A stretch of DNA of 64,000 nucleotides from a virus. A program made the position numbers and the translations under genes. This document shows positions 24,901 through 62,860 of this stretch, piece after piece. The notes beneath the pieces were generated by a model that saw nothing but the letters and a program-made list of their open reading frames with translations, did not search any database and was not told the origin of the DNA. The stretch lies in IMG/VR virus record IMGVR_UViG_3300028920_000072, positions 1 to 64,000 of that record. One strand, written 5' to 3'. Numbering within the stretch: the first letter of the stretch is position 1; each line of letters opens with the position of its first letter.

Positions 24901-26383
24901 ACAACGTAATTTCTTAGCTGAAAAAGATGAGGAATTAGAAAAAGGAAAATTACAATATTTAACTGTAGAACAAGCGGTTGAAAAATTACGTAATGTTGAT
25001 AATTTTGTGCATGTTCCTATGGAAGCACAACTTATAGTACGTAAAAAAGAAGAAAATCCATATCTAATAGATTATAGAGGCGGTATTGATGTACAAACTG
25101 AAGGGGATGAAACTATGGAAGATCCTAACGCTATTCCGACTAAAAAAATAATATCTGGTTTTCAATCAGGCATGGATGAAGAATTGCTATCTTTGGCTAA
25201 AGAATTCAATTATGAAACAGGTGGCACTACTACTAGAGATTATGGTCAAGAAGGAAATAATAAAGTTAAGAGTAAAGCACAACAATTTGGTGTAGAAGCA
25301 GTAACAGAAAAGCAAGAAGAAGCATTTAAAGAAGCGTATCCATACAGAAACGATCCTAAATCGTTGTATTATTTGCCACGTACCGAATTGAATGTTATAA
25401 ATTCTGATGCCACGGTGTATTTTTCGGCAGATATAAATGCAACTGACGGCGGTTTACCAGCTACTCTAGGTGCTGCTCAAAGACATTCCAAGCCTTTCTT
25501 TATGTATACCCCCGAAGGACAAACATGGGAGCGTAAAGAGTGGGGAATTGGTTTCTCTAGTTCAAATGAGTTACAAAGATTACTTAGGAAATATAAAGTT
25601 AGAACTTTAAATGTTGCTGGTTCCAGACTTTCTAAGTTATCTCCTGAGCAATTACGTGAATTTAAGAGAGTGTTTAAAGAGACCATTGGGGCAGAACCTG
25701 ATACAACTACGGATACAACTCAATTATCCATATCATTTACTACAACATCTGACATTCCAGAATTTAGAACGGAAAGTTTATCCACTCGTAATCATCCAAT
25801 AACAATATATGTAGATGGGTCTGATATCAAAGGTACTGGTCAAATAGGCTATGGGGCGTATGCTAATTTTATTGGTGTTGATTATACTATGAGTGGCATA
25901 TCTGATAAAAAAGCTTTTGCTGATTTTTATAACATATCTGAAACAGATATAACTAATGCAATATCTAATCCAACTATGGAATTATTAGGCACAGTTAAAG
26001 TATTAGAACAATTTTCTAAAACAGGTGAACATTTATTAATTAGACAAGATTATGATGGAGTACAGAAGTGGATAAAAGGTGAATGGAAGCAGAAGAAACT
26101 TTGGATAAAAGATCTTGTACAAAAAGCTAGGGAACATATTGCTGCGATTGAATCTCATGGTGGTTCTGTTAGATTTGAGTGGATTCCTGGGCATGTTGGT
26201 ATACCTGGTAACGAAAAAGCAGACACATTAGCTAAAAGTAGAAAAGAACATAATAACATATCTAAGTTGGTTAAAATGTCTCCAACTATTCGTGCTACCA
26301 CAGGATCTATACAAACATCATTTGAATTTTCGGAAAAAGACATAGAAAAAGGTAAAGAAACTAAAGAGAAGTGTAATGAGTAA
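12932..26383 (+). CDS. Giant virion RNA polymerase polyprotein with zincin, YpsA-like and RNase H domains
   Basis: This 4483-residue protein is expected to enter the host with the DNA and transcribe early genes. From N to C: hydrophobic and Gly-rich segments at about 170-220 and 315-450 (possible membrane insertion during ejection); a zincin-like motif HETFH (H1706-H1710) with a likely third ligand in RLAEEFRTY; a long helical region; the polymerase core ending in YRVPVQGQNS and TGSDFDIDKLF, the DxDxD metal site (D3097, D3099, D3101) of two-barrel RNA polymerases such as YonO and phage phi14:2 gp66. About 4070-4240 is a YpsA/molybdenum-carrier-like domain (ISGFQSGMDEELL). About 4288-4440 is an RNase HI with D4295, E4350, D4373 and D4431. 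It overlaps the next gene by 8 bases. Confidence 0.85.
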   Translation: MLDKKDIFASLGSDKKDTPLGQEPVNPKTGLTEEDKKKLFEGLTGSSLGVTTIRGRVPKSYERILGEEGYHPEFGFTATQQQLAEEQSWVGQFGNMLNQMIVGEIIGGTIEGIGYLLDIQQYGDLVNGTEQEWGNWLSDVGKDLRTWTQEVSPIYVSPTAPKFNPGSWSWWMSNMPSIGSTLSLLIPATGAVKGISLLGKALNIGQKIGRTAGWMATGIGRALVSRHMENLMEASGVHEESYQIAKQELIKQYADQINQELSQSALKNPFATEEEKLAAAEVINTKWEKIINEQAKIHASKAAANTYKKQWVTVMQDIPQYLLFGMPPGLGGVVGKATKAAKTTNLSGKVARAMGMDVTKLFANKARSVAFDMLGEGGEEAYQFIINEQSKALMRKAFDPDVKHSFLDIIKENYDDGELWTSAVFGALGAGAMQAVGRGANKLFMGKADKRKIENIRSWSPAMAQAYQEYSAALASDDPIKQRQAYNSFIAINAIKADLSGNADNFVEFIEQMADNPDDATLANFNVQKEHISFLSENPELKDTIKSDMNRIDKLLRTYTKEVDKNDKISAEDKLKAAAALTHNRFLKEKTSKELNSINDEISQIESDLPGFVNSTDEVNEQGENLIYSDTGRAIKQLEYYKQSLEDTIAKRQAYMDAHDDTMGEVEKAQSKLAISVAKNRLQRAKGDLKELRQKYTKEERKNDKQILLDEPTLKEYFSAKKKKAWTELALDQLDAEKKYIESGKPFATSKDKEDTAGEDEKTRKEDSPNIDDTVEYVNKDGQTVRGKIDDILLEDESATNPMYVVRLLDEEGKLTDQTIVLDPEEIQDHFKDSTALEDSIDDISSPLTTEEEKWFEIFSEDEEIGSEGSDAINGLSYTHFDKAKNLEIRNEALDKALRDKNRDWSKAKAYYYIDVNSESFDKIYDELEDILTDAQKAVIKKLKKIQQENSDKKLTKKEIGALTIVSYPLTKEEYSVENKIKKGEDLTKEEEVISNRIHKKRRAYNSLLDRIPIFVKIVQGDEVFDGGMYLHATGHDRMHVPNSTKKKGQAAIDQYKEEKKSIARSNRSAIFWAYLKGEEPYTTGLKIGRGSLKTIDKSLPKSKRQRNLAKVLKKKFNDCKLLIANGTLSKGTTGITLYSGPVTSGGKESKFGRGYKSAGGVYIRDEEETLNGEPYAIHTNKRNMSEEHALIVLEAFRQQAYGVRKPKGKDIYETRFLKPFVFSESSLIDEDAVEGLTTGQVLELLTYHGRHRTDPTDPRFNAKGKDPKLLKALENKTLYLDIGDRALKVFGGKPTVALVYGKDKKMINLLNYSDVLEKKDDFIKWATKNLVYPVHLENRALHLELNKNFLDGRTFRIGKKDPIERKRGDRYNGFVVRNNLITADFERLADGNLYRAPFVDLNITDGKGNQRIFTKDNKPVQPVVPEQEKIKSKAEVESEKAKKEAEVEYKNPFNTRRARRVTVFRENIPSKLTDQETIVLVENISRHLEELITTDKSTPYTPSEIVDKLLKDTETYDAIVFGDRRGELNKPIKEYIKMRVAGVITRTLIDEYKYGETLTDGAKGSPTEEAVAPKVVPNVVEEYKDEDEVVKPAKVKKEVEQVAEEDIETIEDVSIDDLNSVFEDLDNNDDLFKPRQVRKELKNYTEQDLEKELKRVLKMIGRDVNDIKLIKRLVDLTGNGKLDWAAYSHDAIVLYEAAEEGTIYHETFHRVSLGYLKPIERKRLYSLAKEFYKLKEDATDDEIEERLAEEFRTYVLLQEENAPRGIMKILKDILNFIRAFFVRPNGMTKNELDAFFESIYRGDYRFSKKLEENRIKNGKKYARAIKDKEFDTIVSRDSLKNITKTLAAKLLAVNNVTDLNNVVAIDPNKLINYLRRQIKIFSVLETKEGIPEIQKQRATKVKALFVEILGDNEEGVAENFPIFHEYINAYLKDLGVRKTKEVDTFDENEEVVGKVRMDNTLKSYEVSVLDRSMASVKFLVGTLYEVADIEREVQEDGTVKIIPIKAIDETTGLTKFVDLHEVWSRALNDLHIYSTIEEMIDEMRAFAEKENRYYYYDLANKLEKRKDGKNEQIRNQFLSTFRKHKSLFIEMGFKKPRGGFSYNFVIRESSSKQLAREVVLMWNECFYLDPSIVSTGMDGNKYLNREFFHKLNADFTNLSSDYEEKLDTNKVDAKVISDTYDKLSELFDRIHVGVDVATLQTLADTFDKKTEEERVGSLISFVEKVFVGEFARKAEEEEAVEKIPRSFINDRVFYSGRENTEQSLSEAYAKAHPEKFSDMVLGAENSRYYTFSQHNLITENVLKYKTDPDFIRGKKSRFYNHHSIGLQHLLESEENRRNFDIVTFNLMRNERIRDKGSSFNKLSVIETYLIKFAALENGFMPMPVQANRSKYYFMKGLPVLNFNEVVTNITEDGYVTFSDTTLERFYGYFLDEKERIEEIKKLEKEYKAADEDGKAEIRSRMILNYHHDGSFDFKTGNARNFIHFKVFNGKNLSKLSKKEIKNLINDDLNARLKDEIDYLVGIDVILNEGEGNISNLLLQENKLMDIEDYLSETSKELGSDLESPALKVRIAEYLVNHMSSILESEKMFFADPAMFKKDKGSKFDVADDVYKRWFGPGSTGEKFAEQTDSMMDTTYNVVTLNTQTFKSKYYDRLFAKHVELNKQIFGEDKQDHAEKAAQIALKAYEKVDATDGAMLISPEFYRSLMMRLGAWSNENQKAFELLQSNKKLTPEEEVIARNIVLQPIKTVYVGSQNNNGVDHFIYDKMAMFPIFRQVVTNKHMKMLLDRMEAVGEFKGLDKIHAFKFDSATKVGNVRGIDFYLDPENRKQVNVDGLKNAVITPQMYENLRYQLVTDVHDVVEQNVASQVAKVAMGNIQKDATYGDKTGRELIQDFVKTISELSNIGTEKVKADFNIENGRISDKRLVATLLRAATSANKSEDLINALRYDEERNEIYLSIDAMTNRAWVYSRLMPMISEKTIDLTFPGNQLIQVPDYGQGVGVDEELGFSYMDEKNEFIRMESKVSERLLRDIIPNYAKLTHEQRKAFIKKNDITLIAYRVPVQGQNSIVVMKIADLLPEQSGDVIHVPLEFTALTGSDFDIDKLFVMRKYYKVNKKGEAVPVKFSTSDSSEAVKSRYIAKINELYNIHKFNEVVIPKSIREKVETFKKVEHSARLEKSKIYNDGSYNELKPLYDELKILKSKYQLAPEQDKESIMDVIYDIQERIAIVEEKRTDVETGGINDIILAVEDVKFQTIKDLLVKAGLISGDIEVFAKLPIEQQNTEKALKNRLFDIYTTILTDEKQYLNISTPLGNLVKLLEETADKYETLAKKDKNKGLESLETLTPKYQSETRFKFISSDMGIGPAALTNVHHVLTQLTEIQLKTRNNYGWNEKGRLDLSREVGEDGRKILDWTSTQIDAFVDAVKNPFIMKLNVNDATQSVVNLLLRAGLGLTTFSFVSQPILKHYAFEYFNASGSINRYSSGNIEKLVADNIMAIWAEKVNPDVSAEDLFNEDENRIDLPAILNQTQLEEDIDANKQNNSAFYIRQLNVLRHFISINQDAKALNALVLATRVDTKDYGSNPIELRQFLYNIQTLENKNKFVNLEKLISSDGEVVDGGIHLSALLKNSVLLGLELMGDKSMFATTGFAKTIRDIYDSIPGGKSSRILKELSEELYTYFISGFFIDAEDGLKMTQKQLYRLFFGLHPTDEGKDLSNDLIPDSVFNMLNKARSKNSKYYAELSNNKFIQFLTIDVDPEGVVKTFIRTPFHSFNEKWSTDDLIEDFNKLFTHEAKEIRDLARVLYIYSFYSTGFRRTMFGYNTFIPNEINKAIRLQNGKIVSFDRHVKKIVEFLNSEEGNTSMLSSAKREVFKNNWQNDEIVKVVPITAIEDSFTYGDKGAQYAFELSSKKLTRFKVGLNADGQSLFAPYIKMELFGEKNVLLEYVGYNQETKNPIYVIVPRKGYRFRGKVLNEYNIGKKMGNSILLSNDPFYLQRNFLAEKDEELEKGKLQYLTVEQAVEKLRNVDNFVHVPMEAQLIVRKKEENPYLIDYRGGIDVQTEGDETMEDPNAIPTKKIISGFQSGMDEELLSLAKEFNYETGGTTTRDYGQEGNNKVKSKAQQFGVEAVTEKQEEAFKEAYPYRNDPKSLYYLPRTELNVINSDATVYFSADINATDGGLPATLGAAQRHSKPFFMYTPEGQTWERKEWGIGFSSSNELQRLLRKYKVRTLNVAGSRLSKLSPEQLREFKRVFKETIGAEPDTTTDTTQLSISFTTTSDIPEFRTESLSTRNHPITIYVDGSDIKGTGQIGYGAYANFIGVDYTMSGISDKKAFADFYNISETDITNAISNPTMELLGTVKVLEQFSKTGEHLLIRQDYDGVQKWIKGEWKQKKLWIKDLVQKAREHIAAIESHGGSVRFEWIPGHVGIPGNEKADTLAKSRKEHNNISKLVKMSPTIRATTGSIQTSFEFSEKDIEKGKETKEKCNE

Positions 26384-29300
26384 TCCATTTTGCATAAATC
26401 CAAATAATGAAGAATATAGAGAAATGGTCTCTATATTTGGTGAAGATTTAACATATTATCTGTGGAACGAAAACGGCGGGCAACCATTAGATCATGCTCC
26501 AAACGGAGAGTATAGTAATTTATTTAATGATTTGTTTGCTTTATCTGGTAATAGGGAAGATGCGTTAGAATTAAAAGCTCAGATATATACTGAAGATTTT
26601 AAAACGATGTTCGATGGTGAAAGAGATGAAAACGGAGAACCTGTTGCAAGTAGTTTGTTTGTTACTGAAGAAGACGAAGATGAAATAACTAAAAACAGAA
26701 AACATCCTAAAGTAAAAGAAGCATTAGAAAATCCTAAATACAAACCAGGTGAAATAAATGATTTTAATAATCCATTGTCTTGGGATATAGAGAAGGAGTT
26801 TGATTTGCTTGAAAAAGAGAAGAATGACAAAGGGGAGTTGGTAGATAAATGGACTACTCTATTAGGCAGAAGAATAAAACATTATCGTAAATATAGGAGA
26901 GACAGAGCTGAGAGAATAGCAAGTGAAATAAGGGCAAAGGGACATTTAGCAGATATACGTAAAACATATAGAGGTAACACAGTTAAATATTATGTAGTTC
27001 CAGGAGTTCCTATTGGCATTAAGGGAGATAGGTATAAATACATGACTGTTGCTGGTAGGGAAATACAAACCAAAGAAGAAGATGCTCCTCATATAAGGAG
27101 ACTGTTGGGGTTTGTAAATAGACCTAAAACTAATGTTATATCTTTACTTAAAACTTTTCGTTCAGAGTATGGAGAAGTACTTGAGAATAATCCTCTCTTA
27201 AAAGCTAAATTTGATTTCATAATTAGACAAGAGGAGAAGTTAAAAACTTTACGTGTCTATAATCTACCAGAACATGATAGTCCTAATGCATATGCTGTGT
27301 ATGATCCTACTTTTCATCTCATAGGTTTTAATGTTGAAAATTTAATAGAAGAGCCTAGTTTAGAGGCTTTTGCAGAGATATTAGTTCATGAGGCATATCA
27401 TGGTATGACAGCTAAAGCAATTGATGATCCAACTTCTGAAGCAGAACGCAAGTTTAAAGCAGAAATCGAAAAGATATTTGAAACCTTTTTAGAGACAAAT
27501 AAAGACAATACTGATTACATAGAGATGTATCAAAGTGCTTGGACTAAAGAAAATAAAAAGACTGGGGAAGTTGTAAATGATGTTCATGAGTTTATAAGTG
27601 CTTTTAATTCTAATAGCGACTTTGCTGCTTCTTTAAAACCAACTATTATAAAACGCATAAGGCATGCAGTTTACAACTTTTTTGTTGATTTATTAAATGC
27701 AGTTGGTGTAGATATTTCTAAAAAAGGGGATTTTACTTATGATAAAGTCGATAGGGTAGTTAACAGCTTTATAGAAAATCAAACTAAGTTTATGCCTGTT
27801 AGTCCAACTACTTATTCTAAGCGAGACGATAATGCTAAGAAGTATGTTGCAGCAAGAGACAGCATTAAAGAAAAAATAAGGCACATTCTTGAAGGCAGAC
27901 CGAAAGAGATAGCAAAAGCTTTGCGTTCTATTGCTAATGACTTTATATTTGACAAAAAAGAGCATACATATTATCATAAGCCTACTGGTACTTGGTTCAC
28001 ATCTACGACTGAATTTTTAGCTTCTGTGGGCATAGGTGGAGTTAGAGTGTTTGAAATAAAAGAAGGTAAAGAATATGTAATAGCAAAAGGTGAAATTACA
28101 TACAATAAAGTTTTATATAAGAAAGGGCAAACTTTTGTTGGCATTAAAAATAAATCTTCTTTTAAAGGTGAAGGGGAAGTAATTAGTGTTGCCGTAGAGA
28201 GAGGTGGAAATTTGGGGAATGCCATGCATAGAAGTGTTGAAAGTATAGTAGAAGACGTAGCGTATGATATAGAAGAGGAAACTGGATTTAAAGTTGGAGA
28301 ACAAGCTATTAAAAGTCTTATAAAAATAATAGAAGACCTTAAGGGAGAATCTGGTATTGCTTTATCAGAAGTGCTAGTTGCACATCCTGAAAAAAGCAGA
28401 GCCGGTACAATCGATTTAATAATAATTGACAAAACTGGTAGAGTACATTTATTTGATTTTAAGACTAAAGAAAAGGGGTTTAGATGGTACAATAGTACTA
28501 AATATGGAGTGTCTGATAAAAAGAAGTACCATATGCAATTAAACTTCTATAAGCACATGCTTGATAAAATGTTTCCATTTAAGCTGGTCGCTAGTATGAA
28601 CGTTGTTATGTTACAACCTGATGTTGTTGGTGATGAAATAGTTGATGTAGAATTAGACAATACTATTTTTGATAGTGGTATAGATAGATTTGAAACCATG
28701 GAATCGGATTTTGCTGGAACGTATGGAGATAAGCCTGTAAGATATTCTGCTAGTGCTTTAATAGATAGAGTAAAAGAAGATATACGTGCTGACAGTTATA
28801 TGGATTTGCCTGAATTTTTATTGTTAGCATCAGAAAAATCAAAATTAACAGAAGCTGAAACTTTATTGAAAGAAACTTTAAATAAATTCAATAAGAGGCT
28901 TGATATAATGCAAGCAAGATATTCTTTTAGTAAAAGAGAAGGTTTTGAAAAATTCATGGATGAATTAGTTACATCTCAAAATGCTACTTCTGCTTTTTTA
29001 CAAATAGTAACTTATGCATATAAGCAAACCAATATAGTTAAAAAACAGTATGATGATTTAATTAAAAAAGGGGAAAGACCTACTGCAGAAACATTATATC
29101 AGTGGAAAGATTACTTAGTTGTATTTGAAGTATTAGATGATATCAAAAACTTAGTAATGGATGATCCTAGTATGTTTAGTGATCCTAAAACAATGGATAT
29201 GTTAAATTCTGCAATCGATGTTAAGAATTTTATAAAACATAAATTTTTAACTATTGGTAAGGAAATTATAGCAGAGTGGTTGGCTCCATATTATAATGGA

Positions 29301-32126
29301 ATTAGAGCAGAAATTAGGGAGAAAATACTGAGGAAGTATAGAGTAGATTTGACTAATAAAACGAGAAAATTTAGAAAAGAAGGCAATTCTAAGAAAGAAG
29401 CTAGAATAAAAGCACGTGAAGAATTAGGCACAGAGGAAGAATATGTACAAGAACAATTAACTTTAAAAGGTACAGATATAGCTAAAAAAACTTATGAATT
29501 ATTATACAAAGAATTAACATTAGCATCTAGAGATGTAAGTGAATTAACCAGATGGTTAGATAATATGTTAGATGCTAGTGATCCAGTGGTTTCTGCTGCA
29601 GTCAATGCGTTTATGGAAAAAGATGATCTTCATGAAGTCGAAGCTTTAAACAAAAGAGCAGAGCTCATAGACGATTTAACAGAATTTGAAAAAACCAATC
29701 CAAAAGGCTTACTTACCTCAGAAGAAGAATTGTATTCATTTATATTAGAACGTGATGAAGATGGTGAATTAACTCAATATTTACTTAAACCTTGGACAAG
29801 TGCTTTTGAACAGATAGAAAAAAAGCATGCGGCAGAATTATTTAAAGATTATGATTCAGCACAAGCTAAGAAGAATTTAGCAGAATGGCGTAAAGAATTC
29901 ATGCCTACTGATAAAGAAGCATATTATGATGGTTTAGAGGCACATTTAAATTTATTTGTTGTAGGTGAAGAGAAGCTTATACGAAACAATGAAGTAGATA
30001 TTATTATAACAAATTTAGTACAAGAAGAATATCGAGATTTACATGAAATGGCCGAAGAAGGAGAAATAAGTGAATTTGCTGCAGATCAAGCATTAGAATG
30101 GATGAAACTTAATAGATGGAAATATAGTCAATTTAAAGATTATACAGATCCTAAAACTAAAAAAGTCACTAAAGCAATTAATCCTAAATGGTCTGAGTTT
30201 GTTAAAGAATTAGGTATATCAACAGAATTACCTATATATGAACAGATGGCAGAAGTTGAAAAATCAACCCATCCAAAAGCTAAATTATATAATGTTTTAA
30301 TGAAATTAGCCAAAGAAGCTGATAGTATGGTACCTTATAGTTATAGATTAGGGTATCGTTTGCCTGGAGTAGCCAAAACTTCTCATGAACGAGTTAGATC
30401 AGGTCAATCCCCTGCTACTTTTTTTAAAGAAGAATTTAAAAGTAGTTTGTTTTTACGTCCAGAAGATATAGAACGTGGGGAATCGATGCAATTCAAAGAT
30501 GAATTAGGCAGAGCAAAATATTTTATTCCTATTCATTACACTGCTCAGATAGAACCAAAAAATCAATCGTATGATCTTCCTGGTATATTTTATAAGCGTT
30601 GGAGTTCTGCTAATGAATACAGCCACAAACGTCAGATATTATCTGAAATGGAAATGACTAAATTTTTTGTTGAAACAAGGGATGTGAAAAAAAGAAGCGT
30701 GTTAAATAAAATTATACCAAGGAAGATAAACAAAGGGGAAGATGATGACGATCAACCAGAAAGAATGAGTGGTAGTAATCTAGCTGCTATGTTTAGTGAT
30801 TGGTTTGAGTTGGCAGTATATGGTCGTAAGACTAAAGATACTAACAAGGGAACACCTAGTGGATTAATAAAGATAAATGAAAATTGGGTATTAGATACCA
30901 GTAAAGCAGTAGATGCATTGAATAGATATACCTCATTAAATTTACTCGGGGGCAATCTAGTGCAAGGTGTAGCTAATGTGCTAATAGGAGAAACAATGCA
31001 AGCGATAGATACTTTTGCTGGAGAACATGTTAATATGAAGAGTTTTACCAAAGCTAATCTTATATATCATTCGTGGTTGCCTAAAATGATGTTAGATTCT
31101 GGTCTGAAACAACCTCAACACAAAGGGTCTTTGATTATAGAACGATTCGGTATATTACACGGAGATCCTAGATATACTAATTTTGCTATGCGTACTCGTG
31201 TAGGTCAACAATTAAACTACGGTTCTTTGTATTTTATACAACAAGCGGGGGAACATTGGATGCAAGCTAGATTTTTATTTGCGTTGTTGTTAGACAAAAA
31301 GGCTTATGATAAGGAAGGCAATGAAATAGGTAGTATGCTTGAACAGTATCAAGTTAAAAATGGTAAATTAATTATTAATCCAAAAGTTGATTTGATTAAA
31401 TCAAAGTGGACAGCAAAAGATCAGGCAGCTTTTAAACAAAGAGCCAAGGGGTTACTTTCCAGAATGCACGGTGAATATAGTGAATTAGGTCGTGTAGCTA
31501 TACAAAGATTAGCATTAGGTCGTATGGCGTATATGTTTCGTAAATTTGTAATACCTGGTATTAAACGTAGATATGGTAGGAGAAAATATATACAAAGATT
31601 AGATCAATTTGTAGAGGGTAATTATATTACTACTGCTAAATTTGTGGCCAATTTATTTCAAGATTTAAAAATATTTAAACTTGCTTTAATGTCAGAAGAA
31701 TGGGCTAAATTAAATGATCACGAAAGAGCTAATATATATCGTACAATAGCAGAAGTAGCATTTGTTATAGGTACTACTATATTAGCTAATGTATTCTTCA
31801 GGCTAAAAGAGGACGACGATGACGATGATCGTTTCAATGCTTTTCTTGCATATCAGTTTTTTAGGTTACAAACTGAATTGTTGTTTTTCTCACCTAAATT
31901 AGACGAGGCGATAACTATATTACGTTCTCCTATGGCGAGCATGTCAGTTGTAGAAAATATAATTAAAATGTTAGGTCAAATATTTCATCCGTTTGATGAA
32001 TATGAACGTGGACCATGGAAAGGAGAATATAAGATTAAAAAGACTATGATTAATTTTGTTCCATTATATAAACAATATTATAAAGCACGAGATGTTGAAG
32101 AACAAATACCATGGTTTAAGAACTAG
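26376..32126 (+). CDS. Giant virion protein with zincin motif and PD-(D/E)XK nuclease domain
   Basis: A 1916-residue protein whose ATG overlaps the polymerase stop. Domains seen: a zincin-like HExxH (HEAYH, H338-H342) in a helix preceded by EAFAEILV; a RecB/Cas4-type nuclease at about 520-770 with the motifs GNAMHR, AGTIDLIII, FDFKTKE (near D694-K696) and QLNFYK; a long helical region (780-1900) with many charged residues; and C-terminal hydrophobic patches (FVIGTTILANVFF) before an Asp-rich run. It may help process DNA or host proteins on entry. Zinc and nuclease functions are predicted from motifs only. It is the last gene before the convergent terminators. Confidence 0.7.
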   Translation: MSNPFCINPNNEEYREMVSIFGEDLTYYLWNENGGQPLDHAPNGEYSNLFNDLFALSGNREDALELKAQIYTEDFKTMFDGERDENGEPVASSLFVTEEDEDEITKNRKHPKVKEALENPKYKPGEINDFNNPLSWDIEKEFDLLEKEKNDKGELVDKWTTLLGRRIKHYRKYRRDRAERIASEIRAKGHLADIRKTYRGNTVKYYVVPGVPIGIKGDRYKYMTVAGREIQTKEEDAPHIRRLLGFVNRPKTNVISLLKTFRSEYGEVLENNPLLKAKFDFIIRQEEKLKTLRVYNLPEHDSPNAYAVYDPTFHLIGFNVENLIEEPSLEAFAEILVHEAYHGMTAKAIDDPTSEAERKFKAEIEKIFETFLETNKDNTDYIEMYQSAWTKENKKTGEVVNDVHEFISAFNSNSDFAASLKPTIIKRIRHAVYNFFVDLLNAVGVDISKKGDFTYDKVDRVVNSFIENQTKFMPVSPTTYSKRDDNAKKYVAARDSIKEKIRHILEGRPKEIAKALRSIANDFIFDKKEHTYYHKPTGTWFTSTTEFLASVGIGGVRVFEIKEGKEYVIAKGEITYNKVLYKKGQTFVGIKNKSSFKGEGEVISVAVERGGNLGNAMHRSVESIVEDVAYDIEEETGFKVGEQAIKSLIKIIEDLKGESGIALSEVLVAHPEKSRAGTIDLIIIDKTGRVHLFDFKTKEKGFRWYNSTKYGVSDKKKYHMQLNFYKHMLDKMFPFKLVASMNVVMLQPDVVGDEIVDVELDNTIFDSGIDRFETMESDFAGTYGDKPVRYSASALIDRVKEDIRADSYMDLPEFLLLASEKSKLTEAETLLKETLNKFNKRLDIMQARYSFSKREGFEKFMDELVTSQNATSAFLQIVTYAYKQTNIVKKQYDDLIKKGERPTAETLYQWKDYLVVFEVLDDIKNLVMDDPSMFSDPKTMDMLNSAIDVKNFIKHKFLTIGKEIIAEWLAPYYNGIRAEIREKILRKYRVDLTNKTRKFRKEGNSKKEARIKAREELGTEEEYVQEQLTLKGTDIAKKTYELLYKELTLASRDVSELTRWLDNMLDASDPVVSAAVNAFMEKDDLHEVEALNKRAELIDDLTEFEKTNPKGLLTSEEELYSFILERDEDGELTQYLLKPWTSAFEQIEKKHAAELFKDYDSAQAKKNLAEWRKEFMPTDKEAYYDGLEAHLNLFVVGEEKLIRNNEVDIIITNLVQEEYRDLHEMAEEGEISEFAADQALEWMKLNRWKYSQFKDYTDPKTKKVTKAINPKWSEFVKELGISTELPIYEQMAEVEKSTHPKAKLYNVLMKLAKEADSMVPYSYRLGYRLPGVAKTSHERVRSGQSPATFFKEEFKSSLFLRPEDIERGESMQFKDELGRAKYFIPIHYTAQIEPKNQSYDLPGIFYKRWSSANEYSHKRQILSEMEMTKFFVETRDVKKRSVLNKIIPRKINKGEDDDDQPERMSGSNLAAMFSDWFELAVYGRKTKDTNKGTPSGLIKINENWVLDTSKAVDALNRYTSLNLLGGNLVQGVANVLIGETMQAIDTFAGEHVNMKSFTKANLIYHSWLPKMMLDSGLKQPQHKGSLIIERFGILHGDPRYTNFAMRTRVGQQLNYGSLYFIQQAGEHWMQARFLFALLLDKKAYDKEGNEIGSMLEQYQVKNGKLIINPKVDLIKSKWTAKDQAAFKQRAKGLLSRMHGEYSELGRVAIQRLALGRMAYMFRKFVIPGIKRRYGRRKYIQRLDQFVEGNYITTAKFVANLFQDLKIFKLALMSEEWAKLNDHERANIYRTIAEVAFVIGTTILANVFFRLKEDDDDDDRFNAFLAYQFFRLQTELLFFSPKLDEAITILRSPMASMSVVENIIKMLGQIFHPFDEYERGPWKGEYKIKKTMINFVPLYKQYYKARDVEEQIPWFKN

Positions 32127-47059: not shown

Positions 47060-49042
47060 CTAGACTATTTCGCAAGTATCATTATTACAAAATAGTTCTG
47101 GTTTAGATTCTTCACTTACACCATTTAATTCAAATGGTTTTAATTTGCGAATCATTTTTTTGTATTCATCTTCAGATATTTCTTCATATGGCATTTGTGG
47201 ATATGAAGTTTTCTCTAATTTTGGTAAAAAGCTAACTCCTTTCAATTTATATTGAAAATAATTAAGAGCAGATGCTATTTGATCTTTTTCTTCTTTTTTA
47301 AATGTTATTGTACACGATACTTGGTTATCTGCCCAGTACTCTTGTAAAAATGCGGCTAAAGATAATTGTTCCCACATACTTACTTCAGATAGTGTACGAG
47401 TTCCTGTAATTGCCACAGGAATCTCAATAACAGAAGTATTTTCTGGATCATTTACATCTAATTCTACTTTATAGTTAGCTTTTTTAATATATTCAAGTAA
47501 ATTAGAATTATTAGATATTCTAATTCTTCTTTTATAATAGTTTCCCTCAGGAAAATGCATTCCTGGTGTTACTCCAGGTAATAAAGACACTGTACCTGAA
47601 GGTTTAATGCTGGTTGTTTTTATACTTCTAGGTATAGCAAACCAGTCACTATATATTTTATCATAGTATTGTATTATATTGTATCCATCGTCCAACCATT
47701 CATATAATTGGTGAATACCATTACTGTCAAGGAATTGAGCTATTCCACTAACAGAAGTTCCAATGCGTCTATTACGTAATTGTACTCTATTTGTTTCTGA
47801 CCAATGAGTTGTACCTAAAGTTACAGTTTTTGCATATAGGTATGCGAATTTTAATGTGCGTTTAAAGTCCTCTAAGGACTCATGCATTGTTGGAAATGTT
47901 TCTACCAAGCAACACATTTCATATGATTCTAAGGTTTGTTCCATGCATGGATTAGCTCCGACACTACGTAAGTCTCTTCTGTTACTATTATCTCCGAGTC
48001 TTCCGAAGTTACGCATGTTATCAAGCCAGGCAAATCCAGGTTCACCGTTCTTACCTGCTTGCTTTGCAACAGCTTTGTAATCTTGTCCCAGTTCACAAAA
48101 TACTGAGTTATTACTTGCCCATCCCCATTGAGCACGATGCACGTTTCTTCCAACATAGGTTTCAGTTTTATTATCCCAAATGTAGTCTTTAAGTTTAAGA
48201 TAGTCTTCGTCATTTGGGTCACCAAATACTATTTGAGCAGTTCTTCTAACATTACCTGCAACTACACAAACACCAATCATATTCATAATATCTACAATAT
48301 CTTGAATAGTAATTTTTTCACCTATTCTTTTACTTAATAGATGTTTTATTTGTTCATGTAATTTACGTAATGGTTCGGCTCCTGCCGATTTACCACCAAA
48401 AGTTTTTATAGTTTCACCTTTTTTTCTTATTTTATTATATTTAAACACAGGGAGTGATTCTCCTTTAAAATAAGCATTTAAAACTAATTTGAGTGATTCT
48501 ACCCAACCTTCTCTGGTATCAGGTATTGTAAATTCATATGAATCTTTAGATGGTTTTAAAATAGTTAATTTTTTAGCTCCTTTAACATCAAATCCTACGC
48601 CTACTCCAAGCATAGAAAAATCCATCATAAATTCAAATGGTTTACTTAAGTCTTTATCTAAATTTTCAGTAGATACAAAAGCACAATTATTTAAAGCAAC
48701 AAATAAACCTCTATTTTCGATTATATCTGTTCCCATGGCCCATAAACCACGACCTGGTGGTAAAAATTTCATATTAAACATTCGATCATACATTTCTTCT
48801 GCAGATCTATGTGCTTTTTCTTCATCCCAACCTAAGTTGTTTTCTGTAATATAACGCTTTTGAATAGAATATGTGCCTTCTACAACTCTTCGAATTGTTT
48901 CATACCATTTTTCATTTAAGCCATTCTCTTTTATTCTAGAGTATGTTCTTAAATAAGTTATCTCTCCTAATCCATTAAATCCAAACTCTGGTTTAATACT
49001 TTTATATTTATTTATAAAACTATCTTTTAATTCAAAATTCAT
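47060..49042 (-). CDS. nrdJ: Adenosylcobalamin-dependent (class II) ribonucleoside triphosphate reductase
   Basis: A 660-residue reductase that makes deoxyribonucleotides for phage DNA synthesis using vitamin B12. Signature residues align with Lactobacillus RTPR: LNNCAF (C120), GANPCMEQ (C366, E368, thiyl radical site), a second Cys 11 residues later (YEMCC, C377), and a C-terminal CNNDTC (C652/C657) redox pair. The spacing of the Cys pairs equals that of the known enzyme. PSGTVSLLPGVTPG is the phosphate-binding-type loop. Anaerobic-friendly class II enzymes fit a gut host. Confidence 0.9.
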   Translation of the reverse strand: MNFELKDSFINKYKSIKPEFGFNGLGEITYLRTYSRIKENGLNEKWYETIRRVVEGTYSIQKRYITENNLGWDEEKAHRSAEEMYDRMFNMKFLPPGRGLWAMGTDIIENRGLFVALNNCAFVSTENLDKDLSKPFEFMMDFSMLGVGVGFDVKGAKKLTILKPSKDSYEFTIPDTREGWVESLKLVLNAYFKGESLPVFKYNKIRKKGETIKTFGGKSAGAEPLRKLHEQIKHLLSKRIGEKITIQDIVDIMNMIGVCVVAGNVRRTAQIVFGDPNDEDYLKLKDYIWDNKTETYVGRNVHRAQWGWASNNSVFCELGQDYKAVAKQAGKNGEPGFAWLDNMRNFGRLGDNSNRRDLRSVGANPCMEQTLESYEMCCLVETFPTMHESLEDFKRTLKFAYLYAKTVTLGTTHWSETNRVQLRNRRIGTSVSGIAQFLDSNGIHQLYEWLDDGYNIIQYYDKIYSDWFAIPRSIKTTSIKPSGTVSLLPGVTPGMHFPEGNYYKRRIRISNNSNLLEYIKKANYKVELDVNDPENTSVIEIPVAITGTRTLSEVSMWEQLSLAAFLQEYWADNQVSCTITFKKEEKDQIASALNYFQYKLKGVSFLPKLEKTSYPQMPYEEISEDEYKKMIRKLKPFELNGVSEESKPELFCNNDTCEIV

Positions 49043-51761: not shown

Positions 51762-51809
51762 AATTGTTTGATGTTTAGCTTTAATTATTGATATGTCATA
51801 GATAATAGT

Positions 51810-51832
51810 GGATGCTACTAAAAGTAGCACCC
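51810..51832 (-). terminator. Hairpin with minus-strand-only G-U pair
   Basis: GGGTGCTAC pairs with GTAGCATCC across a 5-base loop. One position is a G-U pair in the minus-strand RNA and would be an A-C mismatch in plus-strand RNA. It lies 24 bases after the stop of the 51857 gene, and the tail (ACTATTATCT) is only weakly T-rich. Confidence 0.6.
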
Positions 51833-51856
51833 AAGCTATTATTAAATAAATTTTCC

Positions 51857-52326: not shown

Positions 52327-52758
52327 TTAATAATTAGTGAATATTGTGAATTTTGATTTTTTACGGTTAAGAAATTTAATTAGAATATGATCCTTACTAT
52401 TTCTTAATTCGTCTTTTATTAGGACTATTTTTTTGGATTCATCGTTAAAATAAATATTTTTAAAATCAACAATAGTCCAAAGGTTTGTATATTCATCCTT
52501 TTCTTTTCCCCAAAAATTCTTTGGGAGTCTATTTCTTTTTGTATCCCATGCTGATTTTAATGGTCTCCAAAAAGTTATATTTTCTTTTTTGAACATTAAT
52601 GTTTTTGGAATATACAAAGATAACGAAATATTATTAACTAATAAAGGAATTTTAATTTCATTAGTTAATCTTGTTTTCACTTGATACACTAATCTCAAAC
52701 CACCTATCTGTTTATTTTCTTCTATTTTTAAAAGAGTAAATTTTATTTCTTTTTTCAT
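52327..52758 (-). CDS. Unknown 143-aa basic protein
   Basis: A Lys/Ile-rich protein with an N-terminal strand-rich part (EIKFTLLKIEENKQIGGLRLVYQV) and an aromatic middle (FWRPLKSAWDTKRNRLPKNFWGKEKDEYTN). No motif is recognised. It is the first gene below the large noncoding region, so its promoter may lie in that region. Confidence 0.45.
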   Translation of the reverse strand: MKKEIKFTLLKIEENKQIGGLRLVYQVKTRLTNEIKIPLLVNNISLSLYIPKTLMFKKENITFWRPLKSAWDTKRNRLPKNFWGKEKDEYTNLWTIVDFKNIYFNDESKKIVLIKDELRNSKDHILIKFLNRKKSKFTIFTNY

Positions 52759-52769
52759 TTTAATGATAT

Positions 52770-54300
52770 TTGTGGTTTAGCAATTAATGTGTTGAAGCAA
52801 TAACGATATTGCTATGAGTACATGGCCAATACAATTGACAGTAAACCTCTAACTAGAATAACGGGAAAAATTCTAAGTATCTTTGTCTCTACTGTTTTTA
52901 GACATCACAACTACTTTTTTTCACGAAAATAGATGATATATCTTTACTTATATTCCTATAATTACAATATATCCAATTAAGTTAGTCAAGGGATTACAAT
53001 ATCGCTACACTTCATAGAAATGTAATTCACTACCAGAGTGATTATGTGGAGTTCAATCCACTTGTACTATATATTTACTTATTTACGTTATATTGATAAA
53101 ACTTAACATATTTCGCAATATGTTTTAGTGATAATCGTTATAAGTAATAATTGAAAGAGCTATTTACTCCTATTTTTCACGATAGGCTTTACTCCACCCA
53201 ATATTTGATAAATTTGCTAGTTTATATAATATGGTTGGTAGGTTTCGAGACTAATGGAATCTCTAAGACCCATTTTCAATCTTCACTCATGTTTCAATTC
53301 TATTTATAACTGTGTTATCATAGCATACTCATAAAGCTTAATGCTACCTAAGCTTGCAATATACCCTATACACTATCATATTTGACCGTTACTGGATTAT
53401 ATAATAGTTATTAAGTAATTGAATATATTACCCCGACTTGTTATTTTATTTATGAGTGACATCACGGTCACTTAGTTAAGAGATTTTAATTTTATTATTA
53501 TCCAATTCCTATTTATTAATATTCATATTTTATTGCGGTAGGATTCTAACCTACGAAGCCATATGTTTTGTTCACATTATATTATTGTAATTTTGGATAA
53601 ATATTGATAATATAAATGTGAGAAAACTTTTTAGGCATTCTAATTACGATAGAATTCCTTTGCACTTCAAGAATTATGATGTTGGTGCATAATTCTTTCC
53701 TCTTGGATACGACTCAATCATATTTCAATTAATAACCAACAAAAATAATAATAAATACCTACATTAACAGTTTCACTTATTTTGTATTATTATTTAATAA
53801 TATCTGATACAGAGCAACCGCAAAATAAGCTGTTTCCTGCTTTTACCCCCATACTCTTATAAATGGTTGTAGCTGACATTTATGCTCCCGTATGTCCTAC
53901 GTTACTGCCTTCTTTTCAACCTCACATTGTCTGTCAATTTTGATGCCTTTCAAAAGAGTGTAGCAGAATGCAACCTTAGGAGTAATTATTTTTTCAGGGA
54001 ATTCCACCCTGTCCGTTGCAATACATAAAAGATCATTGTCTAGCCCTTCGGTTCAACACGATGTACCCAGTGTGTCTGTAGTAAATACGCTAGCATGCTT
54101 TAACTATATTTCTACGTTATGACATCTGACTGCAATTTATGCCCTCCTGACCTCATTGATCCTATTCAACATCTTTCCAACCCACTGTTGGCGATTATTT
54201 CATATTCAGCGTGTAGCTTAGACTGAGGAAATATAACTTATGGTGTTTTCTATTTGGAAGTAATTGATTGTACAAATAGTTCATATCACGTCCCTTAATT
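52770..54300 (-). ncRNA. Large structured noncoding RNA, GOLLD/ROOL-like candidate
   Basis: About 1.5 kb without a supportable gene, flanked by a terminator above (54312-54336). It is dense in stem-loops: an 8-bp stem with GCGA loop (53105-53124), an AAGC stem with GAAA loop (53827-53842), a 10-bp stem (53669-53678 with 53688-53697), GTAG/CTAC plus GACAT/ATGTC (53869-53900), GCAAC/GTTGC enclosing CAGGG/CCCTG (53970-54019), AAGCTTA/TAAGCTT (53334-53355), AGTGAC/GTCACT (53455-53472), GTGGA/TCCAC (53046-53061), and TTATTTTG/CAAAATAA (53777-53828). The GNRA loops appear only in minus-strand RNA. Size, ornateness and phage setting fit GOLLD or ROOL RNAs. Class membership is unproven, and it may be two RNAs. 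Confidence 0.65.
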
Positions 54301-54311
54301 TAAAAATTAAA

Positions 54312-54336
54312 GGAGTGCACCATCACAGGTGCACCC
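54312..54336 (-). terminator. Terminator between the ANL-like gene and the large RNA
   Basis: GTGCACC pairs with GGTGCAC around a 6-base loop, with further GG/CC outside an internal mismatch, and TTTAATTTTT follows on the minus strand. It starts 5 bases after the stop of the 54341 gene. It implies that the large noncoding RNA has its own promoter just downstream. Confidence 0.75.
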
Positions 54337-54340
54337 TAAG

Positions 54341-56029
54341 TTATTGATATAATCTTAATCTTCTTGTTAATGGTTGATATGGTAAACCATCGATAGTTTT
54401 AGTAAAAGGTCTACCTAAAATTGCCACTTCTATTATAGAATCTGATGTATATTCTGATAATTCTTTCATCAATTCTGTAATTTGAATTTTCAAAAGTGTT
54501 TGTAATTTAAATAAACCTATATTTAGACTTGATATAAATTTAACATTTGGTTCTATTACAAATGAAAAAACTTGTCTATAATTAAAAGATTTAGTATTGC
54601 GTTCTTCCAAATATATTTGACATTCAGATACATATGGAAAACTTTTAACAAATCTTTCTATTACATCTAATTGTATAGGTATCTTAAATATAGATTTTAC
54701 TCTATTGATGTTTCTACCATATACAAATAATAAATTATCTGTTATTTTAATAAAATCCTTTGATAGAAACATAGTATCTAAACCATCTCCATTGTGTAAT
54801 TCTACAAGTCTATCAATATAGTTAATATATATATTTGGTAGAATTTCTCCTGCACACATAAATTGGTTTAATGCTTTATTAGAAAAATCATTGAATGCTA
54901 TTAATTGCATTGCTTCTTGAGTACCATATGTTGTAATTAATGGAAGAACATCCTTAGCAAGATAGAGAGCTTTCATATGTATTTGTGAATTATATACTAT
55001 TATTGCTTCTTTCTTTGTTTGTTTGTTGTAGTATCTTTTAAGATTTCTTGATGCTAATTTCTTAAATAACCACTGAAGTTCCTTATGTTTAAAAATATTA
55101 TGTTTAAATCTTCCTTCCATTATAGAATCAACTTTTTCTTTCCATACGTTTTCAAAAGAAACAGTATCTTCTATTACAACTTCTGCCTTTTTCATATTAT
55201 CAACAAAAATACAATTTTTCATAAAAGGTATTAATACTGTTAATATGTGACTATATTCATATGGTATTGCTGAAAACACTGTAGTTTGAGCTTCCATGTG
55301 ATCTTTCCAAAATCTACTTTGCATAATTCTTTTCAAATGATGTGCTAATTCTCTTTCATCGACTATTACAAGTTTTTCTTGAAAATTGTGTGTGCCTTTA
55401 GTATAATAACCTAACATTCCTAATTTTTGATTATTACAGAATTTGTCAAACATTTCATCTACCTCTTGTATAGTTAAAGGTGGATTATTCATATCTCTTA
55501 CAGCATAATATTCTAATAAAGCTTTTGGTTCATCAAAATATATAGGTTTTAAAGTCAAGAGATTAAATATTCCTTTTATTAAATGTCTAGTAAATATTGA
55601 AGAATAATTTAGTCTTATGTCATTCAAGCCTAATTTATTTTCCATATATCCATCTGTAAATATATATCTCATATTATTATTGATAATAATATTTTTCAGT
55701 TTTATTTTATCAATGTTGCTAGGAATGATTATTAACTTATTTCCTGTAAGCAATGAAGCAAAATATAATAATATCCAATTCATATTTATTACAGAATCTG
55801 AAAATTTAGTTATTACACCAAGAGAATAATATTCTTTATTATCAAATATTAAGGTATTCTCAACTGATGTTCTGAATAATATAGTTAATAATCTCATATA
55901 ATATACTAATACACTGAAAAAGTCTGACATTTTGTGATTTGAAGTCACATTTGTGTAGAAATGCTTTTTTATATGATCAAAGATCATATTTTTTAAAGGA
56001 CTTATTCGTTTATCTAATATATTTTTCAT
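54341..56029 (-). CDS. Divergent acyl-adenylating (ANL superfamily)-like protein
   Basis: A 562-residue protein whose order of motifs resembles acyl-CoA synthetases and adenylation enzymes. VINMNWILLYFASLLTGNKLI is like the N-terminal helix; YYTKGTHNFQEK (208-219) is like the P-loop YTSGTTGxPK; AIPYEYSHIL is like the LPxxH segment; TTYGTQEA (367-374) is like the YGxTE motif; NLLFVYGRNINRVK (432-445) is like YxxGRxxDxIK; GLPYQPLTRRLR at the end is like PxTxxGKxxRxxLR. Key residues (GTTG, catalytic Lys) are altered, so activity may be lost or different. I infer the family from motif order only. Confidence 0.5.
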   Translation of the reverse strand: MKNILDKRISPLKNMIFDHIKKHFYTNVTSNHKMSDFFSVLVYYMRLLTILFRTSVENTLIFDNKEYYSLGVITKFSDSVINMNWILLYFASLLTGNKLIIIPSNIDKIKLKNIIINNNMRYIFTDGYMENKLGLNDIRLNYSSIFTRHLIKGIFNLLTLKPIYFDEPKALLEYYAVRDMNNPPLTIQEVDEMFDKFCNNQKLGMLGYYTKGTHNFQEKLVIVDERELAHHLKRIMQSRFWKDHMEAQTTVFSAIPYEYSHILTVLIPFMKNCIFVDNMKKAEVVIEDTVSFENVWKEKVDSIMEGRFKHNIFKHKELQWLFKKLASRNLKRYYNKQTKKEAIIVYNSQIHMKALYLAKDVLPLITTYGTQEAMQLIAFNDFSNKALNQFMCAGEILPNIYINYIDRLVELHNGDGLDTMFLSKDFIKITDNLLFVYGRNINRVKSIFKIPIQLDVIERFVKSFPYVSECQIYLEERNTKSFNYRQVFSFVIEPNVKFISSLNIGLFKLQTLLKIQITELMKELSEYTSDSIIEVAILGRPFTKTIDGLPYQPLTRRLRLYQ

Positions 56030-61302: not shown

Positions 61303-61403
61303 TTTTTCTTTTTTTTATATGGGTATGTGAAAAATGTTAACAATGCTGGACCCAATTTAGTAACCAAAATTAATACTATTATGGATGCTATTATTATTTC
61401 CAT
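61290..61403 (-). CDS. Small single-helix membrane peptide (37 aa)
   Basis: The ATG overlaps the upstream stop (TAATG) and the TAA lies 13 bases inside the next gene, which is the arrangement of a translated gene. The product begins MEIIIASIIVLILVTKLG, one hydrophobic helix, followed by a basic tail (KKKKKWK). It may anchor to the inner membrane with the tail inside. Function unknown. Confidence 0.55.
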   Translation of the reverse strand: MEIIIASIIVLILVTKLGPALLTFFTYPYKKKKKWKN

Positions 61404-61600
61404 TATATTCTTTTGAATGTATGATGTTCTAATTCAGTTACTGTTCCACAACAACTACATGCTGCTAAACGAGTATCTGGATTATTTTTATTTGGCATTA
61501 GTTCTGATTGTACTGTTGCGTTTTTATTAGAACAATGAGTACAAGCCCATCTGTAAACTATTGCATTTACAGTGTAAGCTTTAGCTTTATGAGTATTCAT
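61403..61600 (-). CDS. Small zinc-ribbon-like protein (65 aa)
   Basis: The protein holds two CxxC pairs: YRWACTHCSNKN and AACSCCGTV, spaced about 25 residues apart, the pattern of a zinc ribbon. A basic C-terminal end follows (HHTFKRI). Such small ribbons bind nucleic acid or RNA polymerase in phages. It overlaps the upstream gene by 4 bases. Confidence 0.6.
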   Translation of the reverse strand: MNTHKAKAYTVNAIVYRWACTHCSNKNATVQSELMPNKNNPDTRLAACSCCGTVTELEHHTFKRI

Positions 61601-61737
61601 TTTAGTTGATTTTTATGTTTAATCTTACGAGTATAAATCTTTTTACTAGTATGAATTTTAGTTATCCTTGTAAATCCATTATCTAAGGTAGCTTCACGAC
61701 TACCTCGTCTATTTGCTTTAATGTAATCGTTTAACAT
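61597..61737 (-). CDS. Small very basic protein (46 aa)
   Basis: The frame is open further upstream, but the Met at 61737 gives a 7-base overlap with the preceding stop, the usual packing here. The product (MLNDYIKANRRGSREATLDN, then IHTSKKIYTRKIKHK) is strongly basic and may bind nucleic acid. No family is recognised. Confidence 0.45.
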   Translation of the reverse strand: MLNDYIKANRRGSREATLDNGFTRITKIHTSKKIYTRKIKHKNQLK

Positions 61738-61922
61738 TTCCGTTTTCGATATTTTGCTAATATTTTTGCGGTTTCTTTTACTGCACACGGGTCTATTGAT
61801 TTAAGTTTTCTTAAATTATAAAGCCAATATAAATATTTTATTATTTTAAACATCTTTGTAATTTTATTATAATGGGGAAAAGTTGTTTTAGATGTTTCCT
61901 CCCCCAGCTCACCCTGACTCAT
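61731..61922 (-). CDS. Small protein (63 aa), unknown
   Basis: The frame runs from an ATG at 61922 (MSQGELGEETSK) to a TAA at 61731. A second Met at residue 24 (MFKIIKYLYWLYNL) is an alternative start, leaving a basic helical peptide. A G-rich stretch with partial pairing lies at the start (61900-61920). No family is recognised. Confidence 0.4.
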   Translation of the reverse strand: MSQGELGEETSKTTFPHYNKITKMFKIIKYLYWLYNLRKLKSIDPCAVKETAKILAKYRKRKC

Positions 61923-61960
61923 CTTTCGTTTCGCAACTATTTGATGGACTTTCCTTTTTT

Positions 61961-62149
61961 TTAAAAAATTTGTTTTTCATTTGCTTTATCATGTTCTCTT
62001 AAATCATATACTATACCATTTTCTTTACATAACTTTTTACAATCAACATTAAATGCTACTGATAAAAGAATAATATGTCTTTCATTTAATAAGTTAAAAG
62101 CATGAAGATTATCCATATAGTCAATTAACTTTTTGTCTATTTCATTCAT
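61961..62149 (-). CDS. Small helical protein (62 aa), unknown
   Basis: The product begins MNEIDKKLIDYMDNLHAFNLLNERH and is helical, with two Cys (CKKLCKENG) that might bind metal or be incidental. It lies 3 bases from the upstream gene. No family is recognised. Confidence 0.4.
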   Translation of the reverse strand: MNEIDKKLIDYMDNLHAFNLLNERHIILLSVAFNVDCKKLCKENGIVYDLREHDKANEKQIF

Positions 62150-62152
62150 TAT

Positions 62153-62359
62153 TTATTGGTTAGGTTTATAAAATTCCACTTCTGTGTATGCTGCAATATA
62201 TATTCTATCTCCATCCGCATTATATCCATTGCAATATATCCCGTCAAGTCTACATATAGTAATAATATCACCCTTATTAACAGGTATTGCACCAGGTGGT
62301 ATCTTTGCATCTTCAAGCAGCTTTACTTTTATGCCGTATTCTATATCGTATGCTTTCAT
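62153..62359 (-). CDS. Small beta protein (68 aa), unknown
   Basis: The product (MKAYDIEYGIKVKLLEDAKI, VNKGDIITICRLDGIYCNGYNADGDRIYIAAYTEV) looks like a small beta barrel of the SH3 kind. It starts 9 bases after the neighbouring gene's stop in transcription order. Function unknown. Confidence 0.45.
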   Translation of the reverse strand: MKAYDIEYGIKVKLLEDAKIPPGAIPVNKGDIITICRLDGIYCNGYNADGDRIYIAAYTEVEFYKPNQ

Positions 62360-62368
62360 CTCTATTGT

Positions 62369-62860
62369 TTATAGATTAATCAAATAGTCCAAAAACCTTT
62401 TTGCTCCTTTGTTACAAAGTTCATGTAATTGCGGATGAGAAATACCAGCTTCTTTAAATTCGTCATACATTGCCATAGCTATATTAGCAAGCCATCCATG
62501 ATAATAGTCAGAGTCCTCAGCTAAACTGTCTGTCAAAACATTAATGGCATTTTCTAAGTCTGTTTTCATGATATTATTGTTTATTGGTTTGTTTAAAACT
62601 ATTTTACCTCCACAAAAAGGGCAGTAATTATGTTTGTTTTCATCCAAATCACCTACTTCTAACTGATAAGCCTCATCACATTCTGTATCGTAAAAACAAA
62701 ATTCTTCATCATATTTCCACTCGCAGGTCTTCTCCTCACAGTATTGCTCTGTAAACTTTATTGCATCAATAGCCCTTATTTTCATAAAGACCAAGTTTAA
62801 AATATTCTTTAAAAAATTCTTTTTATCAGTATATTCTTCTTTGTCATATACTGTTTTCAT
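62369..62860 (-). CDS. Protein with a zinc-ribbon segment (163 aa), unknown
   Basis: The first 35 residues are helical and the frame may start lower, at a Met at residue 26. Residues 35-90 hold Cys pairs (CEEKTCEWKYDEEFC, ECDEA) and then NYCPFCGGKIV, a zinc-ribbon knuckle found in small phage proteins. The C-terminal half is helical (DLENAINVLTDSLAEDSDYYHGWLANIAMAMYDEF). Function unknown. Confidence 0.5.
   Translation of the reverse strand: MKTVYDKEEYTDKKNFLKNILNLVFMKIRAIDAIKFTEQYCEEKTCEWKYDEEFCFYDTECDEAYQLEVGDLDENKHNYCPFCGGKIVLNKPINNNIMKTDLENAINVLTDSLAEDSDYYHGWLANIAMAMYDEFKEAGISHPQLHELCNKGAKRFLDYLINL

Follow-up and report, generated by a model that had tools for sequence, protein, structure and literature searches.

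A gene-less interval in a crAss-like phage genome

The DNA analyzed here (the window) covers 64,000 of the 65,122 bases of an IMG/VR record and belongs to a crAss-like phage; matches to Crassvirales, at about 30% identity, were obtained with the DNA polymerase and with one virion structural protein. Two minus-strand genes border an interval that we attribute to a predicted RNA element:

54341–56029, minus strand: gene of a 562-aa AMP-binding-enzyme-like protein, ahead of the RNA; homologues in four records (E ≤ 3e-27)
52759–54340, minus strand: whole element, a predicted large non-coding structured RNA of 1582 nt (no ORF, profile match, synteny, covariation)
52327–52758, minus strand: gene of a 143-aa very basic protein, directly after the RNA in every member; homologues found by profile and by reading the loci

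An earlier note on this DNA had described the interval as devoid of genes, and this description holds: in none of the frames of 52759–54340 does a stop-to-stop run exceed 52 aa, and recoding any single stop codon as sense yields at most 138 codons. No reading frame is kept across the homologous gaps described below, where protein-level matches are short and scattered over all six frames. Within the gap, ARAGORN detected neither a tRNA nor a tmRNA (when introns were permitted, it returned scattered calls with long introns, which were disregarded), and the Rfam covariance models gave zero family matches; a TarA hit on the plus strand, at E 0.56 and far under the threshold of that model, was put down to chance. 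Neither the gap of the window nor one homologous gap gave a DNA match to GenBank phages by blastn, and no large RNA of crAss-phages was found in the literature searched. One long exact motif of the RNA was absent from bacterial genome contigs, an absence that is weak evidence given the strictness of the motif.

The basic protein has a pI of 9.5–10.0 and a net charge of +9 to +19 in the nine members examined, and its predicted structure is of low confidence (mean pLDDT 52). The profile of the 562-aa family matches 2-succinylbenzoate-CoA ligase at E 8e-8, and one member displays a Pfam AMP-binding match; the family, which is fast-evolving and related to adenylate-forming (AMP-binding) enzymes, is an unusual phage cargo.

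Several other features of the window deserve mention. The ribonucleotide reductase gene (47060–49042, minus strand) has its best GenBank phage match, at 47.9%, in Actinomycetia phage DSL-LC01, which is not crAss-like, and this suggests lateral transfer. Two giant plus-strand ORFs (12932–26383 and 26376–32126) encode 4483 and 1916 aa, a size that we take to be like that of giant RNA polymerase proteins known in crAss-like phages. A strong hairpin (TGGGTGCTACTTTTAGTAGCATCCA), terminator-like by scan, lies between two operon genes at 51809–51833 on the minus strand. Finally, a second stretch lacking ORFs of at least 80 aa (61303–62369) holds a number of small ORFs that overlap on the minus strand, a pattern suggestive of small genes rather than of a second large RNA.

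The interval occupies the same gene junction in related phages

A search of IMG/VR for close relatives with three flanking proteins found none. Relatives were reached instead via an alignment of crAss DNA polymerases (at most 69% identity in IMG/VR), and searching their records with the gap sequence gave short collinear matches; the four records with homologues of the upstream protein are among them. The junction common to these relatives consists of (i) the AMP-binding-enzyme-like gene, (ii) a gene-less stretch of 1.3–1.8 kb and (iii) the gene of the small, very basic protein; in L164, the upstream gene falls outside the sequence examined.

Altogether, the family comprises 10 distinct members, all of them metagenomic (environmental crAss-like phages in IMG/VR). 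Subgroup A contains the window, G011, G009 (G020 is a second record that scores identically), G006, G061 and G075/L164; subgroup B contains G023, G013 and G014; G047 is a divergent member. The family profile, built from seven sequences that include the window itself, aligns to positions 52786–54339 of the window. G061 was recovered independently by the seven-member profile (E 1e-48) and L164 by the subgroup A profile (E 1e-40). G047 was missed by the profile search, and its membership rests on synteny and shared motifs:

L146:322–2033: gap of G047, very divergent; the T arm precedes the D arm; closed 7-bp acceptor-like stem

Rfam matches at L146 fall outside this gap; among the neighboring genes of G047, downstream of the RNA and in the same operon region, lies a tRNA (L146:4279–4363, 34.4 bits with the Rfam tRNA model). 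A match of model R1 in phage cr118_1 (E 0.03) falls on an annotated coding sequence and was rejected.

Covariation points to a conserved structured RNA

The many stem-loops reported in the earlier note are present, but the folding energy of the single sequence is unexceptional, with local z-scores no better than those of the adjacent coding DNA; stem-loops picked out by eye are therefore not evidence on their own. It is the comparison of homologous sequences that is decisive for the structure. Consensus folding was carried out in windows and set against alignments randomized by shuffling columns inside blocks, gaps and invariance classes being kept (40 shuffles each). The consensus energy was −376.9 for the five sequences of subgroup A (shuffled: −250.3 ± 16.0), −799.6 for the three sequences of subgroup B (−580.9 ± 16.2) and −99.2 for all eight sequences (−46.2 ± 11.1), exceeding every column shuffle in all three alignments. 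Compensated pairs numbered 40, 72 and 22, respectively, versus shuffle maxima of 35, 49 and 15. In each of the three alignments the minus strand out-folds its complement, in agreement with the strand assigned in the earlier note, and the compensating base changes are found in aligned members located at the same gene junction. The conserved structure is distributed along the full length of the element rather than concentrated near the start codon. Taken together, these comparisons make it almost certain that the element is a conserved structured RNA; the giant structured RNA, possibly of a new class, that the earlier note had put forward is thus backed by both synteny and covariation.

The following helices and motifs lie outside the tRNA-like domain described in the next section:

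54313–54336, minus strand: 5′ hairpin GTGCACC-TGTGAT-GGTGCAC, scored terminator-like by consensus scan
53969–54020, minus strand: domain 1, stem TGCAAC/GTTGCA around a GGG/CCC hairpin (GGGTGGAATTCCC), from covariation
53875–53896, minus strand: hairpin P_a, stem GACAT/ATGTC, loop ACGGGAGCATAA (similar in relatives), compensated in five of the five subgroup A members examined
53849–53866, minus strand: hairpin P_c, CCAT/ATGG, with compensated stems in relatives
53775–53830, minus strand: stem P_e, GCTTATTTT/AAAATAAGT, around the AAA-loop hairpin P_f (53785–53802), compensated
53169–53186, minus strand: GUGAAA-loop hairpin CCTATC[GTGAAA]AATAGG, from covariation
52789–52798, minus strand: 3′ conserved motif GCTTCAACAC, immediately ahead of the next gene, from the subgroup A alignment

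Domain 1 is paired in all eight members, with changes on both sides at four of its five outer pairs and a covariation score of 0.375 (shuffled: 0.165 ± 0.040). The GUGAAA hairpin, which is also present in the divergent G047, scores 0.595 (shuffled: 0.237 ± 0.066), and its loop is unchanged in seven of the eight members of alignment A8 while the stems vary. P_c is replaced in relatives by CTATCA/TGATAG, CCATCT/AGATGG, CCAGT/ACTGG and TTACTA/TAGTAA, and P_e by CCTATTTC/GGAATAGG, CTTTGTTC/GAACAGAG and others, again with compensation. Further stems display 4–10 compensated bp across relatives. Slid controls, in addition to the shuffles, were used in judging covariation.

The 5′ hairpin calls for a separate comment, as the earlier note had placed a terminator just above the interval and deduced that the RNA has its own promoter. 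Most relatives have a hairpin at this position, with a compensated stem (GTAGC/GCTAC, ATAGC/GCTAT, ATGAC/GTCAT) that is not followed by a U-tract; the U-run of the window belongs to a second hairpin. Judging from this conservation, the 54313–54336 hairpin is better explained as the opening stem of the RNA than as a terminator, and a separate promoter is consequently not implied.

An internal domain resembles tRNA-Tyr

Inside the element, the subgroup A sequences can be arranged as a cloverleaf, with the following parts in the window:

53532–53718, minus strand: tRNA-Tyr-like cloverleaf with a bulged acceptor-like stem, UA, D stem, anticodon-like arm, long variable arm and T arm (model R2, pair counts)
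53669–53697, minus strand: hairpin P_j (AAGAATTATG/CATAATTCTT), at the D-loop place of a tRNA; both-side changes at 7 of 10 pairs (alignment A11)
53638–53654, minus strand: anticodon-like arm TTCTA[TCGTAAT]TAGAA, 5 bp and a 7-nt loop, with a central GTA and C at the U33 place
53538–53554, minus strand: T arm GTAGG[TTAGAAT]CCTAC, with the T-loop motif TNNRAAT, present in all 10 members

Matches of the family profile in unrelated viral contigs were mostly tRNA-Tyr genes, with E-values that are biased because a T-arm pattern derived from the family had served to retrieve the contigs. For this reason, we built a covariance model, R2, from four subgroup A members, the window being left out, and used it with an unbiased control that no pattern had selected, namely 39 kb of E. 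coli K-12 in four stretches that carry 14 annotated tRNA genes (three Tyr, three Leu, one Ser, Asn, Thr and Gly). In the structure of R2, 13 pairs are changed on both sides versus 4.6 ± 1.6 after shuffling, and none of 500 shuffles reached the observed value. R2 matches the domain in the window at E 4.1e-9 (48.5 bits) and aligns tRNA-Tyr genes of viruses end to end, from E 1.6e-6; the top matches among viral tRNAs are Tyr, with some Leu ranked lower. In the E. coli control, R2 matches exactly tyrT, tyrV and tyrU, leaving all tRNAs for Leu, Ser, Asn, Thr and Gly without a match. Small sequence-only profiles, which had been tried for isotype assignment, detected the T arm and did not separate Tyr from Ser/Leu, a point that the covariance model and the E. 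coli control resolved. Since E. coli tRNA-Tyr aligns to R2 with P_j deleted, P_j sits in the D loop.

When paired cells are counted over the members having each helix, the anticodon (36/36), T (39/40) and variable (24/24) helices reach values attained by none of 2000 partner shuffles, bearing in mind that the cloverleaf helices were partly hand-placed, so that these counts lean towards structure. The D stem, with 27 of 27 cells paired and a P of 0.06, provides weaker evidence. The acceptor stem of G014 is reduced to one pair, the acceptor and D stems of G075 were not placed and the anticodon arm of G047 was not located. The anticodon-like stem becomes CCCA/TGGG or CTTTG/CAAAG in relatives, and five of the six members with the natural order have the central GTA in its loop. 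The strongest alteration is seen in the variable arm, which has an insert of 73 nt in the window, 58 nt in G075 and 21 nt in G009.

The domain thus has the acceptor–D–anticodon–long variable–T order of a tRNA-Tyr, including the T-loop, this natural order being restricted to subgroup A. No CCA end and no 7-bp acceptor stem are found (the stem is short and bulged), and position 33 is C or G instead of U; these departures from a regular tRNA make a use in translation unlikely. Judging from the model matches and the covariation, the element very probably contains an internal domain related to tRNA-Tyr. No other feature of the element is as distinctive as this domain, which lay beyond what the earlier note could see.

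The cloverleaf occurs in two circular orders

In subgroup A, the chain runs through the cloverleaf in the order acceptor–D–anticodon–variable–T–acceptor. In subgroup B, the order is anticodon 3′ strand, variable arm, T arm, closed acceptor-like stem, D arm and anticodon 5′ strand, both ends of the chain lying at the anticodon loop; G047 is permuted as well. The permuted form is supported by two features of the sequences: (i) pairing between the anticodon strands of subgroup B spans the entire domain and is compensated (CCTGAT/ATTAGG, CCCGAT/ATCGGG, CCCAAT/ATTGGG); (ii) the acceptor-like stems are closed, as in CAATC-AACA-GATTG (G013) and CATAGTT-TGCAAG-AACTATCG (G047).

Possible roles of the RNA

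The reading that we favor, with a probability of roughly 0.45, is that of a structural RNA, or ribonucleoprotein scaffold, equipped with a tRNA-derived docking arm. The RNA would be transcribed from the minus strand within the flanking operon, or processed from it, and would fold into a compact ornate particle, either alone or with the adjacent small basic protein; the tRNA-derived arm would have no part in translation and would act instead as an architectural element or as a dock for proteins, and the whole would work as an assembly or scaffold RNA in the manner of GOLLD and ROOL. A fuller version of this proposal, which we advance somewhat more tentatively, is that the element represents a new giant phage RNA class built around a captured tRNA-Tyr, remodeled by a D-loop hairpin and permuted in one lineage, which might form an RNA machine or cage during infection, possibly with the basic protein.

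Two other roles start from the position of the RNA and from the identity of its tRNA-like domain. The RNA could be a giant cis-regulatory 5′ leader of the downstream operon, whose tRNA-like domain senses or mimics tRNA for translational or transcriptional control: it reaches to within a few tens of nucleotides of the next start codon, the same genes lie downstream across members and neither end shows a clear terminator or spacer in homologues. Because no recognizable terminator separates the RNA from the downstream genes, a leader or an intra-operon RNA has to be reckoned with; 1.3–1.8 kb would, however, be very long for a phage leader, and the conserved structure covers the whole length rather than lying beside the start codon, so that we deem a leader unlikely. 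Slightly less probable is a tRNA-Tyr decoy, or sponge, unable to function in translation, for host enzymes that attack or bind tRNA-Tyr, the remaining RNA being a stable carrier. The domain resembles tRNA-Tyr and no other tRNA type tested in the E. coli control, and the variable arm, its most altered and expanded part, corresponds to the loop of tRNA-Tyr that PtuAB of Septu and retron-Eco7 cleaves, an attack counteracted by a phage tRNA-Tyr discussed as decoy or supplement (PMC13096335, PMC11555353). Against a decoy, about 1.4 kb of extra conserved structure would be needless, recognition may be lost through the permutation and the missing acceptor stem, and the published rescue relied on the loops and anticodon of a real tRNA.

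The two remaining explanations concern the nature of the element itself. It resembles GOLLD in size, phage origin, tRNA association and ornateness (PMC12286853), as would a divergent representative of one of the known classes (GOLLD, ROOL, tmRNA, group I or II intron), and the earlier note had pointed to GOLLD or ROOL. Searches at permissive E-values with the Rfam 15 models of GOLLD, ROOL, tmRNA, group I/II introns and riboswitches gave no match in the window gap or in eight homologous loci, where no Rfam family reaches E 0.5, and ARAGORN calls neither tmRNA nor tRNA; the GOLLD or ROOL identity is accordingly not borne out, and we hold membership of any of these classes to be very improbable. 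A degenerate or frameshifted gene, or a set of unannotated small genes, might be read into the ORFs of 60–107 aa found in the gap of some homologues, but these ORFs differ in frame and strand and are not conserved, and compensatory changes in stems dominate, which leaves this explanation next to no weight.

Comparison with known large RNAs

To our knowledge, few classes of large structured RNAs are known in bacteria and phages, and we know of no established origin or task for GOLLD and ROOL. The present family extends such large RNAs to crAss-like phages; it offers a recognizable ingredient, tRNA-Tyr, within a giant RNA, together with a natural pair of permuted versions, a consistent gene neighborhood that includes a candidate partner protein and a possible link, open to testing, to defenses that target tRNA-Tyr.

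The tRNA-like domain shares with bacterial tRNA-Tyr (class II, anticodon GUA) a D stem, an anticodon-like arm, a long variable arm and a T arm that align end to end; it departs from it by the extra hairpin in the D loop, by being embedded in about 1.5 kb of other RNA and by its permutation in subgroup B and G047. A tRNA-like domain within a larger structured RNA is also found in tmRNA, where, however, the tRNA-like part is formed by the two ends of the RNA, whereas it is internal in the element, which is negative with both ARAGORN and Rfam.

GOLLD and ROOL are large phage RNAs that lie near tRNAs and assemble without protein into RNA cages of unknown task (PMC12286853). Like GOLLD, the element is a large, ornate, phage-encoded non-coding RNA with extensive conserved pairing and an association with tRNA. 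In GOLLD, tRNAs lie in or near some members, whereas here the cloverleaf is integrated rather than being a tRNA gene, carries a D-loop hairpin, lacks CCA and has a permuted form; many GOLLD members exceed 800 nt, as compared to about 1.3–1.8 kb for the present family, and the flanks here are the AMP-binding-enzyme-like and basic-protein genes instead of a tRNA island. ROOL (Rumen-Originating, Ornate, Large) is likewise a large structured non-coding phage RNA, one example of which, 659 nt in length, forms an 8-mer cage; GOLLD forms a 14-mer RNA cage. We file the element as a new class among the loosely known 'large ornate phage RNAs', outside GOLLD and ROOL, from which the Rfam models set it apart.
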